43,842 bases of DNA from a virus. A program made the translations under genes and the position numbers. The notes under the pieces were generated by a model. That model had not been told where the DNA came from, did no database searches, and saw nothing but the letters and a program-made list of their open reading frames with translations. Positions 18,907-42,732 of this stretch are shown piece by piece. The first letter of the stretch is position 1, and each line of letters opens with the position of its first letter. The DNA is taken from positions 1-43,842 of the IMG/VR virus record IMGVR_UViG_3300025652_000142; one strand, 5' to 3'.

Positions 18907-20693
18907 TACCCACCAAGAGCTTCTGCAATGGATGGTGGGGCTTGTGGTGGCAAGCCCTGTCCACCCAACATTTGTTGTTGAATCATTGCTTCCTGCTCTG
19001 GTGTCATACCAGGTTCTTCAGGAGTATAAAATTGTTTCATAATATCAGTTATAGCATTCGGTTGCTCGTAGATTGCTATAGCTGCCATTGTTGCAGATGG
19101 GTCGCCTTGTGCTGACCTAGCTAATATAGAATCAAATAAAACACCTTCTGCTTTATTTTTTCTAATACGCTCTTGTACTTTTTGTATATTTTCTAAACCA
19201 TCTATGTTATCTTGTAAAGTTTCTGTGTCTATAACACCAGCTTGTAATAATTGCAAACCAGTAACTATTTTCTGTGGTTCATCAAATCCTGCCATAACTC
19301 CATAGATACGTCTTGTTCTTAAGTCTCCACCTATATCTTTTAAAGGTTGATAGTTTTCAGAAAAAGCAGAACCGTTAATATAACCTATCATAGGTTTTTT
19401 TGTCACACCTGTTGTGTATGCTAGAACAACATCCATTTCTAATCTTTTAGCATCCATTTCAACAATTGCGTTTTTAATAATTTCTCTGTACTCGTTTATC
19501 ATTAATGACATTGCGCCATTAAGTTCTTGTAAACCAGCTCCTGTTACAAACGAATTAGGTGACTGCGCATCATCAGTAACAGGATAACCACCAACAAGCC
19601 TCAATTGTCTTTCTAATCTATCCACTTGTTGGAACAATTGATATGGCATGTTATTTTGTGGTTTGCTGACCTGTGTACCTGGTGACAAATAGTTAACGGC
19701 AAATCTACCTTTTCTATATTGTCCAGACTCTAGTTCACCAGAAATGTTTGTTTCAGTAAATACTGCATCTTCCATAGCGATAGCAGACATAATGTTTATC
19801 TTTGCCATCATACCCATAAGACCTATGACATGGTCATACTGTCCTTTAAGTTGGTCAAAAGAAATACGTTTCATAAACACAAACGGTGGAGTAGAAAGAA
19901 CGTTTGGTATAAAATCTAAAATTAATTTACGTTCAGGAAATACTATGTATGTACCACCTTGGTCATAGTATTCTATTATTCTTAATCCAGCTCGTGTGTT
20001 ATCTTCCCAATCCTGTGCGTTGTTTGTATCATAACTTAAAAATTCTGTAGGAACAGGTGTATAATCTTCTCCTGTTTCATCATCATCTTTTCTCATGATT
20101 TCATCTTTAAACTCAGGATAAATTTGTGCAAGTTTATATCTTGGCACTCGTCTAAGAACTGCTAGTTCTCTAGGTTGTTGGTCAGGACCAAAGTTTCCAG
20201 GAAAAGTATCATACGGGTCTCTTAGTTCTGCACTAGGATACACGTAACCATTACTGTCAACTTTAGTTGATATTACCCAAGCACAATAACCATAACCTGG
20301 TAACCATCTAGATGCTTGTGCTAACTGTCCTGTTAGATTTTGTGTTGCATCATAAGATGTTACTATTCGTTCTAGTTTTTCTGCTTGAAATTTAGCTCTC
20401 TCTGATTCATTACCATTAAGAATATCTACACGTACTTGTGGTACACCAGATATTTTTTGAGCTAACCTATCAATACCTGATTGTAATAAGTTTGGTGCAG
20501 GTAACAAGTCTGCATCTTCTGCATCCATTGAGTTACCAAGTAAAGACTTCATGCCTTCACTACCACCATTTAAAATAGCTTTAATACGAGCTTTACTTAC
20601 TTGTCGTTCTTGTACTGCTTGTCCACCGACTAACTCAGAGGCGCTTTCAATAATTTCATTGTATGTTTTAAGGTCTAAGTTTTCTATCCCCAT
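18906..20693 (-). CDS. Portal protein
   Basis: 595 aa, typical portal length. Visible features: N-terminal helical wing, the clip/stem region with P-A-P-N-L-L-Q-S-G-I-D-R-L-A, W-L-P-G-Y-G-Y-C-A-W-V, D-P-Y-D-T-F-P-G (residues ~155-162), and a Gln/Met-rich C-terminal barrel-like tail ending P-P-Q-A-P-P-S-I-A-E-A-L. It is directly downstream of and overlaps the terminase gene by 10 bp, as expected. Forms the dodecameric DNA channel at one capsid vertex and docks the terminase. Confidence 0.85.
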   Translation of the reverse strand: MGIENLDLKTYNEIIESASELVGGQAVQERQVSKARIKAILNGGSEGMKSLLGNSMDAEDADLLPAPNLLQSGIDRLAQKISGVPQVRVDILNGNESERAKFQAEKLERIVTSYDATQNLTGQLAQASRWLPGYGYCAWVISTKVDSNGYVYPSAELRDPYDTFPGNFGPDQQPRELAVLRRVPRYKLAQIYPEFKDEIMRKDDDETGEDYTPVPTEFLSYDTNNAQDWEDNTRAGLRIIEYYDQGGTYIVFPERKLILDFIPNVLSTPPFVFMKRISFDQLKGQYDHVIGLMGMMAKINIMSAIAMEDAVFTETNISGELESGQYRKGRFAVNYLSPGTQVSKPQNNMPYQLFQQVDRLERQLRLVGGYPVTDDAQSPNSFVTGAGLQELNGAMSLMINEYREIIKNAIVEMDAKRLEMDVVLAYTTGVTKKPMIGYINGSAFSENYQPLKDIGGDLRTRRIYGVMAGFDEPQKIVTGLQLLQAGVIDTETLQDNIDGLENIQKVQERIRKNKAEGVLFDSILARSAQGDPSATMAAIAIYEQPNAITDIMKQFYTPEEPGMTPEQEAMIQQQMLGGQGLPPQAPPSIAEALGG

Positions 20694-22594
20694 GGTGCAT
20701 CATTCATATTAGTTAATTTAAAATCTCCATAACTTGGTTCGTAATCTGTTCCAACGTCAGCTAGACGTTCTTTTTGCATACGTCTAAATACTTTCATCGG
20801 AAACCAACTAGCCATAACTATATCAGTTTTTTCCTTGTTTCGCTTTGAAACAGGTTTACCATCAAAGTATAACAACTGTTGTCTGTATTTTTGTATTTTA
20901 GCACTACTTTCTGAATCACCTGTAGGTAAATGTATTTTTCTATTTTCAAACAAATCTGCCATTGCACCTACACCATATAGTGGGTCATGTTTGTTTTTAC
21001 CTGTTAGATGTCCTTGTAGCTGAATACCACTACGTAATGTAAATTCTTTTATCTTATCATCTTGACGTATAGCAGTTTGAAAACCGTTTTCTTCTACTAT
21101 CCATTGACGACAATCATATTTGTGTAACCAATCTGACATTTGGTCAAGTGCAGCCCTTACTCCGCCCCCTTGCCTATTTTCTAAATCTACTAAAAACAAT
21201 TCGCCTCTATATGCATCTATACCCCAAAGTACTGATGCTTGGAATCCTGATGATGCAGGGTCAAGTCCAGCTACTAAATGTAAATTTCTATAATGTTGTC
21301 CCATAACTAAATCTGGTCGCATACATTGGTCAACCATGTTCATAGTAAAGATTTGTGTACCTTCTATGTATGTTTGGTTATAATACACCATCTCAAATAT
21401 CTGCCTACCACCAGTAGATTCAGCAGAACGTAACCTAGACATTAACCATTTGTGTGAACGTTTAGTAGGCCATAACATACAATCTGTATGTACTTCATCA
21501 GTATGTTCTGGTAGTTCACATTCTAGTTTGTGTGCAGATTCAACTATTGATGTAAAGTTATCTGATTCTAAAAGATGGTTATATAAATCATCAGGGTGTT
21601 GTCTTGAACCTATAACAACAACAGCTGTGTGTTCTTCTTTACGTGAAGATAATGTTGTTGTCCACCATTGTCTTGTAGATTCTCTTGCACCAGCTTGCAT
21701 AGTCGTTTGGTGGTCTTCAATGTCATCTGCAATTATTAAGTCACAGTCACGTGATAATATTTTTCCACCTTTACCTACAGCAACCATAGTAGGCGATTTA
21801 ATACCAGCTACAGTTCTTGTACCTACAGTAAATTGATTTTGTGACCAGTTCTTACCAGAACGGTTATCTGGTTTAAAAGATGTACCTGGGGGACAGTATG
21901 CCTCTCTAAGTTCTTCGTTCGTGTCAAGCACGTCTAGGACTGCGCTAAGGGCATTTTTAGCTATATCTTCGTTTCCACCTACCCACATGATACGTAGGTT
22001 TGGATTCTTGCATATCTGGTACACAGCAAAATGTATTAACAGTTCTGTCTTTCCATGTCTTGGGGGGCTTAATATTAATAATTCTTTACCGTTATTAATA
22101 GAATCTATAATGTTATTTATCCAATTAGTATGGAAGGGGGCTGTTTCATACTTCTTACCTAGTTCCGTACGAAAATATTTTTCGCGGAAGCTAGAAAAAT
22201 TCTTTAAACTCTTTTGTGCATCTTCTGATATTTCCCATCCGTCAGCAGCGATGGAGTTCCTGGTGTCAATTTTGTAGGCAGCTGCCATTCGAGAGACGGT
22301 AGCCGAGCTAGTCTCAAGGAGTAAAGATACCTCAGCTACACTAATGTCTCCATTAGCTAGTAACTCGGCGTATCCTTCACTTACGAAAGCTCGGTAATAC
22401 GTACCTCGTCTAACACTAGCGTAGTCGCCATCATCAGATTTTAGTTCACGGTTAATTGGTTTTTCAACCTTGTCATTATGTCGCTTGTCGGCTGCGAACT
22501 GTCTCTTTTGACAGGTAGGTGAACAAAATTTTCTTTGTTTCCCACTTAATCGCTTCCTACAGCCTTGAGCTATACATACAACATTTTGACCCAT
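20684..22594 (-). CDS. terL: Large terminase with extra N-terminal zinc finger and HTH
   Basis: 636 aa. The ATPase has Walker A S-P-P-R-H-G-K-T (176-183) and Walker B L-I-I-A-D-D-I-E-D (286-294). The RNase H-like nuclease has G-L-D-P-A-S (443-448), V-E-E-N-G (500-504) and a late acidic residue in K-T-D-I-V-M-A. Ahead of this are a C7/C12/C24/C28 zinc-binding knot and a helix-turn-helix (about 82-108, S-V-A-E-V-S-L-L-L-E-T-S-S-A-T-V-S-R) that looks like the DNA-binding part of a small terminase. No separate small terminase gene was found, so the two functions may be fused. First gene of the late arc. Confidence 0.9.
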   Translation of the reverse strand: MGQNVVCIAQGCRKRLSGKQRKFCSPTCQKRQFAADKRHNDKVEKPINRELKSDDGDYASVRRGTYYRAFVSEGYAELLANGDISVAEVSLLLETSSATVSRMAAAYKIDTRNSIAADGWEISEDAQKSLKNFSSFREKYFRTELGKKYETAPFHTNWINNIIDSINNGKELLILSPPRHGKTELLIHFAVYQICKNPNLRIMWVGGNEDIAKNALSAVLDVLDTNEELREAYCPPGTSFKPDNRSGKNWSQNQFTVGTRTVAGIKSPTMVAVGKGGKILSRDCDLIIADDIEDHQTTMQAGARESTRQWWTTTLSSRKEEHTAVVVIGSRQHPDDLYNHLLESDNFTSIVESAHKLECELPEHTDEVHTDCMLWPTKRSHKWLMSRLRSAESTGGRQIFEMVYYNQTYIEGTQIFTMNMVDQCMRPDLVMGQHYRNLHLVAGLDPASSGFQASVLWGIDAYRGELFLVDLENRQGGGVRAALDQMSDWLHKYDCRQWIVEENGFQTAIRQDDKIKEFTLRSGIQLQGHLTGKNKHDPLYGVGAMADLFENRKIHLPTGDSESSAKIQKYRQQLLYFDGKPVSKRNKEKTDIVMASWFPMKVFRRMQKERLADVGTDYEPSYGDFKLTNMNDAPWG

Positions 22595-22629
22595 TTAACT
22601 AACTTTCTGTAGATGTTTGCGTAGTGCTA

Positions 22630-22658
22630 ATTATATGGTACTATACTCTCAAATACAA
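22630..22658 (-). promoter_or_regulatory. Putative late promoter ahead of the terminase gene
   Basis: Minus-strand TTGTAT (22653-22658), 17 bp, TATAAT (22630-22635). The predicted start leaves a ~30-nt leader to the ATG at 22594. The same TTGTAT -35 with TATAAT/TATACT occurs at two other gene starts here. Confidence 0.5.
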
Positions 22659-22780
22659 ACATCAAACACAAGTAATTTGTTACAGGTGAAGGTGCAATCG
22701 GGATGTAGAAAGCTGCTGACTGGCAAGACAGTACACTAGAAAGACAAAGGCAGTACCCAAGGACATTAGAAAGCGTTTGA

Positions 22781-22816
22781 TTAGGCACACAATTACTAAT
22801 GCCCGCTAGTGCCTAA
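22781..22816 (+). other. Perfect 8-bp hairpin in the control region
   Basis: TTAGGCAC (22781-22788) pairs with GTGCCTAA (22809-22816) around a 20-nt loop. It is followed at 22821-22838 by a second perfect hairpin, ACTGTAG-ccac-CTACAGT (7 bp, 4-nt loop). The weak A-rich run after the first does not make a convincing terminator. Confidence 0.6.
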
Positions 22817-22906
22817 AAAGACTGTAGCCACCTACAGTATTACAGAAGTTACCAGCATATATTTCTAGCCTTACATACTATATATAGAACATCAAGGTTA
22901 ACACTG

Positions 22907-23004
22907 GTAGGTCAAACAACACTCAGTAATAAACAGTATTGACAGAATGTCAATTCTTTTATGTACTGTACTGAGTGTCTTTACCTTACGGTAAAGTGAC
23001 CTAC
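22907..23004. other. Branched (cruciform-like) palindromic element
   Basis: Four nested or side-by-side perfect stems: GTAGGTCA/TGACCTAC (22907-22914 with 22997-23004), ACACTCAGTA/TACTGAGTGT (22919-22928 with 22969-22978), ATTGACA-gaa-TGTCAAT (22938-22954) and TTTACC-ttac-GGTAAA (22980-22995). Together they fold 98 nt into a closed multi-branched shape on either strand. It could be a small RNA, an attenuator or an extruded DNA structure at an origin. Confidence 0.65.
22926..22967. promoter_or_regulatory. Back-to-back promoter pair in a palindrome
   Basis: The palindrome ATTGACAgaaTGTCAAT carries one perfect TTGACA per strand. Plus: TTGACA (22939-22944), 17 bp, TGTACT (22962-22967). Minus: TTGACA (22948-22953), 16 bp, TATTAC (22926-22931). 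The -10 boxes are only 4/6, so activity is uncertain and may need an activator. Confidence 0.4.
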
Positions 23005-23125
23005 TATATATAGTATCCCTTATTGATTTAATACCATATGTAGTGTATTGATATGACTATGCATACATATGGATACTATATATAACTACAGTGTTATCCG
23101 TCCAATGTATTACATTCCAACTGTT

Positions 23126-23183
23126 CATTAAGTTACTTGCCTCTACTGTATTGTGCTAACAGTACAGTGAGGATAACTTAATG
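23126..23183. repeat. 10-bp inverted repeat with inner 6-bp repeat
   Basis: CATTAAGTTA (23126-23135) is complementary to TAACTTAATG (23174-23183); inside, ACTGTA pairs with TACAGT. GTTATCC near 23093 can alternatively pair with GGATAAC (23171-23177), giving two competing folds. CCATATG/CATATGG (23034-23040, 23066-23072) lies just upstream. Confidence 0.5.
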
Positions 23184-23233
23184 TTACAGACCTTTGTCGC
23201 CGAGGCTTGCGAGTGCGTCTTGGTCTGTCATAC

Positions 23234-23261
23234 TTGTATGTCAATGCCAATCTAGTATTAC
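23234..23261 (+). promoter_or_regulatory. Putative early promoter
   Basis: TTGTAT (23234-23239), 16 bp, TATTAC (23256-23261). The -35 matches those of the other promoters proposed here; the -10 is weak. Transcription from it would put the 23292-23358 hairpin in the leader of the first early gene. Confidence 0.3.
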
Positions 23262-23291
23262 CCATAGATATTCTCGTATCCTATTTTCTAA

Positions 23292-23358
23292 GTCCTTTCG
23301 TATTTAAGGATTTTCCGTCTTGGCAGGTATGTAAGACAGAAAATTCATACGAAAGGAC
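23292..23358 (+). promoter_or_regulatory. Long leader hairpin sequestering the first early ribosome site
   Basis: GTCCTTTCGTAT (23292-23303) pairs perfectly over 12 bp with ATACGAAAGGAC (23347-23358). After a 4-nt bulge the stem goes on: GGATTTTC/GAAAATTC with one G-T pair, one C-A mismatch, then GTCTT/AAGAC, closing an 11-nt loop. About 25 bp in all. The 3' arm contains the GAAAGGA ribosome site for the ATG at 23367, so folding should block translation. Confidence 0.7.
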
Positions 23359-23366
23359 AAGAAAAT

Positions 23367-23672
23367 ATGGATACTGAATATACTAAGTGGGTAAATACTA
23401 TCGATTGTGGCATATGTCATACTGAAGTATTTCCAGACGAAAGACACCCTATAAAAAGCTACTTCGGACCACAGAAGGGCTGGGTAACATGGAAGTCGTA
23501 CCTACACGGCGACTGTGTTGCACAACCGACAGTTGGAGGCAAGCCGAACTTAATTGAAAAGCATAAGGAATCTAAAACCTATATTGCACGTAAATTAAAA
23601 GAGTTGCCTAAATTACAAAAACAAGTTGATAATATCAAGCAATTATCATTATTTGAAGGTAGTGAGGCTTAG
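23367..23672 (+). CDS. Small Cys/His protein, first gene of the early operon
   Basis: 101 aa, not recognised. C19-x2-C22 and H47-x2-C50 could bind one zinc, with W39/W42 between them; the C-terminal 35 residues are a basic-then-acidic helix (L-K-E-L-P-K-L-Q-K-Q-V). Being the first early gene behind a control hairpin, it may be a host-takeover or DNA-binding protein, but nothing in the sequence proves this. Its stop codon lies inside a hairpin (23655-23687). Confidence 0.65.
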   Translation: MDTEYTKWVNTIDCGICHTEVFPDERHPIKSYFGPQKGWVTWKSYLHGDCVAQPTVGGKPNLIEKHKESKTYIARKLKELPKLQKQVDNIKQLSLFEGSEA

Positions 23673-25839: not shown

Positions 25840-26565
25840 ATGGCAAACGATTGCTGGGAATTAGTAGAATCTGTATTGGGCAATAGCCGTAGAGTATTAC
25901 TTTATGGCCCACCTGGTACAGGTAAGACATACAGTGCTGTTAAAACTAATACGCCTAAAGCGTATAGTAAATCAGCAGGAAAAGAAATAGATAATATCTA
26001 TCAAATAACTATGACAGAAGATACTGCTAGTGCAAACTTAGAAGGTTTTTACAAACCATCTAGCACAGGTACTTTTGAATGGCATGACGGTATTGCAATA
26101 CAATCATGGAAAAATGGTGGTCGCCTTGTAATTAATGAGATAGACCATGCGTCACCAGACGCAATGACGTTTCTACATGCTATTTTAGACGACCAAGAAA
26201 TAGCAATGTTGACATTAAATAACGATACAAAAGAAACAGTTAGACCAGCTGATGGCTTTCAAGTTATAGCTACAACTAACAGTCCACCAGAGTCATTACC
26301 TTTGGCTTTGAAAGACAGATTTCCTGTAAAAATATATGTTGACAGTATACACCCTAAAGCAATGGAACAGTTTCCAGATGAGTGGCACGGTGTAATTAAT
26401 GATACAACATTAGTAGAAGATGATGAAGAACGTATTTCAGTACGTGCATGGACAGAGTTCTTTAACTTACAAGCTAATGGCTTTAGTCCAGAACAAGCAG
26501 CTAAATTAGTCTTTGCAGACAAAGCAGAAGAATTAATAGATGCTGTTACGTTAGCACGTGCTTAA
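25840..26565 (+). CDS. MoxR/CobS-like AAA+ ATPase
   Basis: 241 aa with GAAAGGAG ribosome site. Walker A G-P-P-G-T-G-K-T (23-30), Walker B R-L-V-I-N-E-I-D (95-102), sensor 1 A-T-T-N-S-P (144-149) and a conserved arginine in L-K-D-R-F (160, arginine-finger region). This is the dynein-related/AAA_5 type that forms hexameric rings and works with a VWA partner, as in MoxR-VWA and CobS-CobT. Its stop overlaps the start of exactly such a VWA gene. Role inferred: ATP-driven remodelling of a target selected by the partner. In phages similar genes are often called cobS, but no cobalamin genes are present here. Confidence 0.85.
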   Translation: MANDCWELVESVLGNSRRVLLYGPPGTGKTYSAVKTNTPKAYSKSAGKEIDNIYQITMTEDTASANLEGFYKPSSTGTFEWHDGIAIQSWKNGGRLVINEIDHASPDAMTFLHAILDDQEIAMLTLNNDTKETVRPADGFQVIATTNSPPESLPLALKDRFPVKIYVDSIHPKAMEQFPDEWHGVINDTTLVEDDEERISVRAWTEFFNLQANGFSPEQAAKLVFADKAEELIDAVTLARA

Positions 26566-40657: not shown

Positions 40658-41692
40658 TTATGCAAAGCTCACTGTTCCACTTGTTTGTATTTCTACATAT
40701 TTTCTTGAACCAACTGTTTGTTCTCCAGCACTTGATGATGCTCCTCCAGCAAAAGATATTGTGTAATCACTTGGATAACTTAAAATAACTACTCCAGAAC
40801 CAGCATTTCCACCAGTACCATAGTAGTAACTTCCACCACCACCACCACCACCAGTGTTAGCTGTTCCTGGTTTACCTGCTTTGCCTTGTCCTGCATCTGA
40901 ACCATTACCACCACCACCAGTACCTCCTGTAGCACCAGCAGCACCACCAGTGGGTCCACCACCTCCACCACCAGCTCTAGTTACACTAGAACCTGTGATT
41001 GTAGAAGCAACTCCATCACCACCGTGTCCATCACCATCTGTACCACCTGCTTCACCTGCACCACCTCCACCACCTGCAATAGCACTAGGACTATTTTCAC
41101 CAGAAAAACCTTGATTAGCTGTACCAGCACCACCTGTGCCTGATGCCATAGAAGCTCCACCACCAGAACCTCCTGAACCACCATTTGTAGAAGTATATTT
41201 AACACCCTTACCACCACCAGTTGATGTTACAGTTGCGAAAGCAGAGTTAACACCTGCGTTTCCATCTGTAACACTACCACTACTATTTCCTGTACCACCA
41301 GCACCACCTGCACCAACAGTAACTGTATAACTTGTGCTATCAAGTAACAATAAAGCATCTTCAGAAGAACCTCCTCCACCAGATGCTTCAGAGTTATAAG
41401 AAGCACGATAGCCACCTGCTCCACCACCAGAACCTATATCAGAAGCACCACCACCACCACCTGCAATAACTAAATAGTCAACAGATAAAGAAGGAATATC
41501 TTTCATTACTTTCCAAGCAGAACCATTGTAATAAAAAGGAGCTGCTTTATCTGTATCATATACTATGTCACCAGCTACTGATGTCAGTGCATTTTTTTGT
41601 GCAGTAGTGTATGACTTTAATCCTAGTGCATTATCTATAGCTACATTGTTTTGGTCATTTGTTGAAATCTTATTTGTTTTTAATTCACTCAT
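40658..41692 (-). CDS. Glycine-rich tail fibre adhesin (344 aa)
   Basis: Residues 1-70 are an anchor: N-V-A-I-D-N-A-L-G-L-K-S-Y-T, A-L-T-S-V-A-G-D-I-V-Y, Y-N-G-S-A-W. This is followed by L-V-I-A-G-G-G-G-G and a ~230-residue Gly/Ser/Ala region with poly-Gly blocks, like the Gly-rich sandwich of distal phage adhesins (T-even S16 gp38-type), then a C-terminal beta end V-V-I-L-S-Y-P. Gly blocks with variable loops between them are where receptor specificity is set. Paralogue immediately upstream. Confidence 0.8.
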   Translation of the reverse strand: MSELKTNKISTNDQNNVAIDNALGLKSYTTAQKNALTSVAGDIVYDTDKAAPFYYNGSAWKVMKDIPSLSVDYLVIAGGGGGASDIGSGGGAGGYRASYNSEASGGGGSSEDALLLLDSTSYTVTVGAGGAGGTGNSSGSVTDGNAGVNSAFATVTSTGGGKGVKYTSTNGGSGGSGGGASMASGTGGAGTANQGFSGENSPSAIAGGGGGAGEAGGTDGDGHGGDGVASTITGSSVTRAGGGGGGPTGGAAGATGGTGGGGNGSDAGQGKAGKPGTANTGGGGGGGSYYYGTGGNAGSGVVILSYPSDYTISFAGGASSSAGEQTVGSRKYVEIQTSGTVSFA

Positions 41693-42732
41693 TATGCAAA
41701 GCTCACTGTTCCTGTTCCTGCTGTAAAAGTTACTACTGTATCAGAACCATCTGTTGCACTTGATGAAGTTAAACCTGCACCAACTGTAATAGTTGCATCT
41801 GCTGTAGCCCATCTTAAAACTACTAAACCACTACCACCAGCTCCACCAGTTCCAGAAATTGTACTGTGAGTTCCACCACCTGCACTACCTGTGTTTACAG
41901 TTCCTGCACCACCATTAGCTGAAGCAGTTGCTGTTCCATTACCACCACCACCTGCACCACCAGAACCAGGTACACCACCTAAATCTGACCTACCACCACC
42001 ACCTCCACCACCAGCTCTAGTTACACTAGAACCTGTGATTGAAGATGCTAAACCATCTCCTCCATCTCCACTAGGGTCAGTACGAATTGGTGGAGTTCCT
42101 CCAACTGCACCTGCACCACCTCCACCACCAGTTGGATACTCACCTGGGTATAAGTTACTACCCCCAGGAAATCCTTGTTCAAAATTATTGCCACCACCAT
42201 TAGAATTACCACCAGAATATCTACCACCACCACCAGAACCTCCGTGGTTAGGGTCATCAAGTAATCCCCCATAACCACCACCTACTGCTATTCCATAATG
42301 ATATTTAGAATTGTTACCATTAGTTGCTTCTGCACTTGAAGTTCCACCAGCTCCACCACTACCTACAGTTACTGTATAAGTTTGTCCTAAAAAAGTTAAT
42401 ATTTTTGTTGCTGTTGAAGTAGCTCCACCAGATTGTTCAGATGCGTAACTATTTATATAACCTCCTGCACCACCACCACCTCTGCCTCCTCCACCACCAC
42501 CTGCAATAATTAGTGATGAAAGAGTTAATGATACTAAACCACCTAAATCTTCCCAAGCTGAACCTGTATATACTTGAACTTTATTGTCATCAGAGTTGTA
42601 TATAGTATCTCCAGCTACTGATGTAAGTGCATTTCTAGCACTTGTACTGTATGACTTTAAATTTAAAGCATCATCAAAAGATACATTGTTAGTAGAGTAT
42701 TTACCTATAGCGTTAGTTTCTAATGTACTCAT
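41692..42732 (-). CDS. Glycine-rich tail fibre adhesin, paralogue (346 aa)
   Basis: Same design as the 344-aa neighbour: anchor with N-V-S-F-D-D-A-L-N-L-K-S-Y-S and A-L-T-S-V-A-G-D-T-I-Y, then L-I-I-A-G-G-G-G-G, poly-Gly blocks and a C-terminal G-T-V-S-F-A shared with the neighbour. The segment S-S-I-T-G-S-S-V-T-R-A-G-G-G-G-G is identical in both, while the loops between are different. Confidence 0.8.
   Translation of the reverse strand: MSTLETNAIGKYSTNNVSFDDALNLKSYSTSARNALTSVAGDTIYNSDDNKVQVYTGSAWEDLGGLVSLTLSSLIIAGGGGGGRGGGGAGGYINSYASEQSGGATSTATKILTFLGQTYTVTVGSGGAGGTSSAEATNGNNSKYHYGIAVGGGYGGLLDDPNHGGSGGGGRYSGGNSNGGGNNFEQGFPGGSNLYPGEYPTGGGGGAGAVGGTPPIRTDPSGDGGDGLASSITGSSVTRAGGGGGGGRSDLGGVPGSGGAGGGGNGTATASANGGAGTVNTGSAGGGTHSTISGTGGAGGSGLVVLRWATADATITVGAGLTSSSATDGSDTVVTFTAGTGTVSFA

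Follow-up and report, generated by a model that had tools for sequence, protein, structure and literature searches.

The gap between the divergent late and early gene blocks of an uncultured phage appears to hold a two-part early control region. Its first part (22617-22807) would consist of a promoter and a pseudoknotted RNA, here called R1, and its second (about 22898-23360) of rapidly renewed stem-loops in early mRNA; we place the probability of this reading at roughly 0.5. The DNA analysed, referred to as the window, is the 43,842-base virus record IMGVR_UViG_3300025652_000142 from IMG/VR, whose relatives are mostly marine. The late genes extend leftward, beginning with the terminase gene, and the early genes rightward from 23367, and the 772 bases between the terminase gene and the first early ORF include a 98-nt branched palindromic element at 22907-23004. 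An earlier note had rightly located this element between two divergent gene blocks and had likened it to a regulatory RNA. The direction of that proposal was right; the well-supported structured RNA, however, is the adjoining R1 and not the 98-nt element, and we consider R1 more striking than these fast-evolving hairpins. The features are listed in Table 1.

Table 1 Features of the early control region and its flanking genes in the window.
Feature	Position	Strand	Details
Terminase large subunit, first gene of late block	20684-22594	-	phrog_38, E 3e-63
Putative R1 promoter	22617-22644	+	-35-like TTGCGT 22617-22622; extended -10 TG 22636-22637; -10 TACTAT 22639-22644
Conserved structured RNA R1	22651-22807	+	about 155 nt; covariation; model match 186 bits
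R1 helix P1	22661-22667/22775-22781	+
R1 helix P2	22679-22681/22762-22764	+
R1 helix P3	22685-22687/22755-22757	+
R1 hairpin H1	22693-22696/22704-22707	+
R1 helix P4	22712-22717/22749-22754	+
R1 hairpin H2	22719-22722/22729-22732	+	a small H3 is also in the model
R1 pseudoknot	22699-22805	+	H1 loop CGGG 22699-22702 with CCCG 22802-22805 of the conserved GCCCGCT tail
Conserved TTRACA..GTCAA block	22898-22915	+	TTAACACTGGTAGGTCAA
Branched hairpin, four stems	22907-23004	.	fold, inverted repeats, compensatory changes; outer stem GTAGGTCA 22907-22914/22997-23004, 8 bp; second stem ACACTCAGTA 22919-22928/22969-22978, 10 bp; third stem CTTTACC 22979-22985/22990-22996, 7 bp, loop TTAC; fourth stem TTGACA/TGTCAA, 6 bp, nested within the second
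Second palindromic hairpin	23005-23084	.	perfect arms 23005-23018/23071-23084, 14 bp; nested 9-bp hairpin 23034-23072
Third hairpin	23126-23183	.	outer arms 23126-23135/23174-23183, 10 bp; nested ACTGTAC-type stem
Hairpin before first early ORF	23292-23358	+	12-bp perfect arms; 3' arm carries GAAAGGA
First early ORF	23367-23672	+	101 aa; CxxC pair (CGIC)

R1 is a conserved pseudoknotted RNA behind a putative promoter

Over most of its length, the non-coding stretch 22595-22915 shares 71-86% identity with dozens of the more distant relatives; as DNA, it is about as conserved as the adjacent terminase is as protein. Within the putative R1 promoter, the TTG, the TG and positions T1, A2 and T6 of the -10 element are invariant in 39 aligned relatives, with a spacer of 16, and a TTGYAT-16-TATANT-like sequence, read by eye, stands in the same place in a second clade of phages. 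These features suggest promoter activity, with a transcription start predicted near 22651.

Folding of the R1 alignment with RNAalifold gave 31 pairs, 17 of which had changed on both sides. With divergent members included, the structure comprised 33 pairs, counting the pseudoknot, with 99.0% of cells paired and 20 pairs changed on both sides, and the covariation score was 0.423, where shuffles reached 0.126 and slid partners no more than 0.061. The fold is compact, many of its unpaired bases are invariant, and conserved G-U pairs (for example, columns 69-112 and 38-120) assign the RNA to the plus strand. The pseudoknot was first noticed from an invariant CGGG loop and GCCCGCT tail in the first clade, together with a paired change in a few divergent loci, and was then tested on many second-clade sequences that had been retrieved by a model not containing it. 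CGGG was accompanied by CCCG in 48 sequences and CAGG by CCTG in 27, with zero exceptions, while three further sequences ended before the complete tail. On a terminase tree of 95 phages (FastTree), the pseudoknot state changed 10 times, always on both sides, and the exchange between CGGG/CCCG and CAGG/CCUG yielded nine independent pairs on supported branches (sign test, p 0.004). A structured RNA should keep its helices through two-sided changes in diverged sequences; R1 and its pseudoknot do so, and the 98-nt hairpin does so only at short range. At the level of sequence comparison, covariation thus establishes the structure, pseudoknot, strand and position of R1.

R1 occurs in more than 200 uncultured-virus stretches from two phage clades whose terminases are about 52-56% identical. 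One search pattern matched at least 119 stretches in IMG/VR and another 113, with few loci shared. Of 60 second-clade loci, 42 gave a model match to R1 (E 9e-28 to 6e-15), and the remaining loci may have a truncated flank. Wherever the terminase was visible, R1 lay upstream of it on the opposite strand, at a distance of about 94 to 2,540 nt. Because R1 stays recognisable across phages with half-identical terminases, it is probably important in infection. Identity to actinophage proteins is ~27% for both terminase and capsid, and one R1 locus sits inside a gammaproteobacterial metagenome bin that may be misassigned.

No family in Rfam 15 matched R1, relaxed thresholds returning chance-level models only, and a nucleotide search of named and cultured phages with the whole region and a divergent R1 sequence gave only short chance matches. 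Literature searches turned up no published description of such an RNA, in a comparison that leaves out the Ocean-VI motif, which is listed without an Rfam number (PMC2864571). GOLLD, ROOL and OLE are likewise structured RNAs, some of them carried by phages, but they span several hundred nucleotides and belong to Rfam families, whereas R1 is unmatched. The packaging RNA of phi29 resembles R1 in being a phage RNA encoded near packaging genes; R1, in contrast, points away from the terminase gene and has no Rfam match. We give even odds to the wider proposal that R1 represents, in hundreds of uncultured phages, a previously undescribed class of pseudoknotted RNA that would direct early expression via the transcription or translation machinery of the host and that in one clade is coupled to a rapidly renewed stem-loop array. 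R1 can serve directly as a probe for uncultured phages of this kind, and as a candidate on which RNA-based control of early expression in phages can be tested.

R1 would act in early expression

In the mechanism that we propose, host RNA polymerase would start at the sigma-70-type promoter of the first part right after infection, and R1 would fold while emerging and act in early expression, for which its position, promoter and conservation argue. Its action would most likely be in cis, with either the elongating polymerase or the first early genes as the target. We infer transcription, function and cis action for R1 and for the second part alike from sequence patterns.

In many relatives, a second start would probably lie at the TTRACA block. 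This block resembles a -35 element, and about half of the relatives have a fitting -10 element; the window's own copy has none. In the first clade it directly precedes the hairpins, and it also forms a gapped palindrome whose right half doubles as the first arm of the outer stem of the 98-nt element. In 10 of 28 relatives, pairing of the block with a downstream partner surpassed shuffles (p 0.05 or less), which is suggestive only. Between R1 and the TTRACA block, positions 22848-22890 hold a further conserved block, TTACCARCATATWTTT..TAGACYTTACGTACTATAT, which is T-rich and resembles a terminator tail but lacks a consistent stem; it is perhaps a leftward late promoter.

The second clade keeps R1 without the palindrome cluster, and the hairpins therefore fall outside the core function of R1. 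In many members of that clade, a perfect TTGACA promoter box also lies 430-480 nt downstream of R1; R1 may therefore be a small RNA of its own instead of leading the entire early block. From the second clade and the promoter-like boxes after R1, we regard R1 and the hairpins as neighbouring but separate units. A single giant RNA comprising both was considered and dropped, given the second clade without hairpins and the promoter-like block that stands between them in many relatives.

The strongest competitor of cis action, which we rate as a possibility although a distinctly less probable one, is that R1 is a discrete small RNA acting in trans, for example by binding host RNA polymerase or another host factor, with the hairpins on a separate early transcript. 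The conservation of its own promoter in both clades, the additional perfect TTGACA promoter that many second-clade members have downstream and the compact pseudoknotted fold with its many invariant unpaired bases would suit such an RNA. A search for a consistent intrinsic terminator directly 3' of R1, however, found none, and the small Cys-containing ORF that follows within tens of bases in the second clade, as read by eye, gives R1 a leader-like setting. These second-clade ORFs (like MKCKECKNTLKQI..YYC) lie on the strand of the RNA, as at 1804-1984 of locus L187, and in places have only TTG as a start codon. In many relatives, the early block begins with small Cys-containing ORFs, and the window's own first early ORF had no match in Pfam or PHROG.

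It is rather unlikely that R1 is a cis-acting antitermination RNA like put of phage HK022, allowing host polymerase to pass early terminators. Both are phage RNAs directly behind an early promoter, and R1 faces the early block as putL does (PMC9378689); for R1, action on the host polymerase is only proposed, whereas put acts as an antiterminator by way of the zinc-binding domain of RNA polymerase. Early in the block, the plus strand does carry two terminator-like sites. Nevertheless, put has about 70 nt and two stem-loops (PMC9378689), while R1 is larger and pseudoknotted, with nested helices over about 155 nt and a layout other than that of put. Moreover, terminators in the early blocks of relatives were without plus-strand excess (31 vs 31), so antitermination is not specially supported. 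The processive antitermination RNA EAR (epsC, RF01735) is a structured leader element like R1, and R1 had no Rfam match to it at gathering or relaxed thresholds.

A fast-turnover stem-loop cluster follows R1

All four stems that had been described in the 98-nt element (8, 10, 7 and 6 bp) are present. As RNA, it folds at -40.0 kcal/mol on the plus strand (z -6.9) and -38.3 kcal/mol on the minus strand (z -6.2), and 0 of 200 shuffles folded as well. The inverted repeats noted as continuing to 23183 were recovered as the 14-bp and 10-bp arms of the second and third hairpins, and the reported ACTATATATA copies as four matches when both strands are counted (0.42 expected), of which two are the two strands of one palindrome. 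The hairpins of the 98-nt element lack a T run, and a plus-strand scan for intrinsic terminators listed none there.

The element or a variant of it is carried by 12 close IMG/VR relatives that are 91-100% identical over the region. Among seven distinct close versions, two-sided changes affected three outer-stem pairs and one pair in the second stem, two versions had lost two outer pairs, and in some the inner part of the second stem had been exchanged. The earlier note had named conserved pairing in relatives as a check; compensatory changes were indeed found in close relatives, but beyond them the sequence is not alignable. These changes constitute moderate evidence, the sequences being few and closely related, and pairing conserved over so short a range would not tell RNA from DNA.

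Folded as single-stranded DNA, 22890-23190 gave a z of -10.3. Across 43 relatives, the 230 nt after the TTRACA block had mean z values of -5.24 (plus strand) and -5.15 (minus strand) and contained 321 perfect 8-nt inverted-repeat seeds against 36 expected, in a set that includes several near-duplicates. Stem sequences turn over completely among relatives, yet the hairpin-rich position is kept. Pooled over 24 loci, perfect hairpins peaked on the early side at 8.7 per kb, at a distance of 250-500 nt from the start of the terminase gene, and continued at about 1-5 per kb through most of the next ~3 kb; the late side had mostly <1 and at most 2 per kb, a contrast that partly reflects available space, because non-coding DNA is scarce in the late block. 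A real, fast-turnover stem-loop cluster therefore lies within the early control region. On the early side of R1, many first-clade relatives (L021, L043, L074, L185 and others) share the words CTTCCGAC/GTCGGAAG in their hairpins, far above chance.

The hairpins of the window sit directly before the early ORFs 23367, 23794 and 24218, and the cluster is best read as stem-loops of the early-mRNA leader and of intergenic regions. Such hairpins would serve as generic structure, in message ends, processing or stability, or the masking of ribosome sites, which would explain selection for pairing and not for sequence; the structure of the array indeed seems to be selected by position rather than by sequence. 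GAAAGGA, in the 3' arm of the hairpin at 23292-23358, is a likely ribosome-binding site for ORF 23367, and the hairpin may thereby affect translation. Mismatches within stems comprised 24 G-T and 16 A-C, an excess so slight that selection on RNA is not demonstrated for the second part. T7-type intergenic RNase III hairpins are also stem-loops between early genes; judged from sequence alone, the likeness is accompanied here by complete turnover and promoter-proximal clustering.

DNA-level readings of the palindromes

The palindromes could instead be DNA operators, such as TTRAC-N8-GTCAA and the CTATATATAG repeats, for a regulator that controls the divergent promoters of the early and late blocks. 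We think this improbable. The equal fold strength on both strands, the near-symmetric G-T and A-C mismatches, the conserved gapped palindrome at 22898-22915 and the more than chance frequency of ACTATATATA would all accord with protein-binding sites, but an operator motif should repeat both within and between relatives, and the stem sequences turn over completely. Early genes far away from the divergent promoters also have similar hairpins between them, and no regulator was recognised among the proteins searched.

Still less probable is that template-switching mutation in a freely varying region produced the hairpins as by-products without selected function. Perfect pairing, rapid turnover and little strand bias are what such a process would leave; compensatory substitutions within the same hairpins of close relatives, and the persistence of hairpins at one position across nearly all of the first clade, argue against it.

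A replication origin, the other function put forward for the palindromes, was not supported and is the least probable reading: the cluster has strong secondary structure, adjoins the early block and lies near a change in the sign of the GC skew, but it has a G+C content near the genome mean, holds no tandem array of iterons (direct repeats are short, with two copies each) and is absent in the second clade, and the skew, negative to 22 kb, positive from 23 to 33.5 kb and negative from 34 kb, follows the coding strand, since its change at 22-23 kb is matched by another at 33-34 kb where the genes turn.

Other features of the window

Elsewhere in the window, 25840-26565 encodes an AAA-type ATPase (phrog_16448, E 2e-33), adjoined by a 475-aa protein without a relative in named phages. 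Two adjacent ORFs, 40658-41692 and 41692-42732, both match phrog_2295 and are tandem paralogues. The ORF at 1125-1583 holds a degenerate tandem repeat (1250-1497) with a 12-base unit and higher-order periods.
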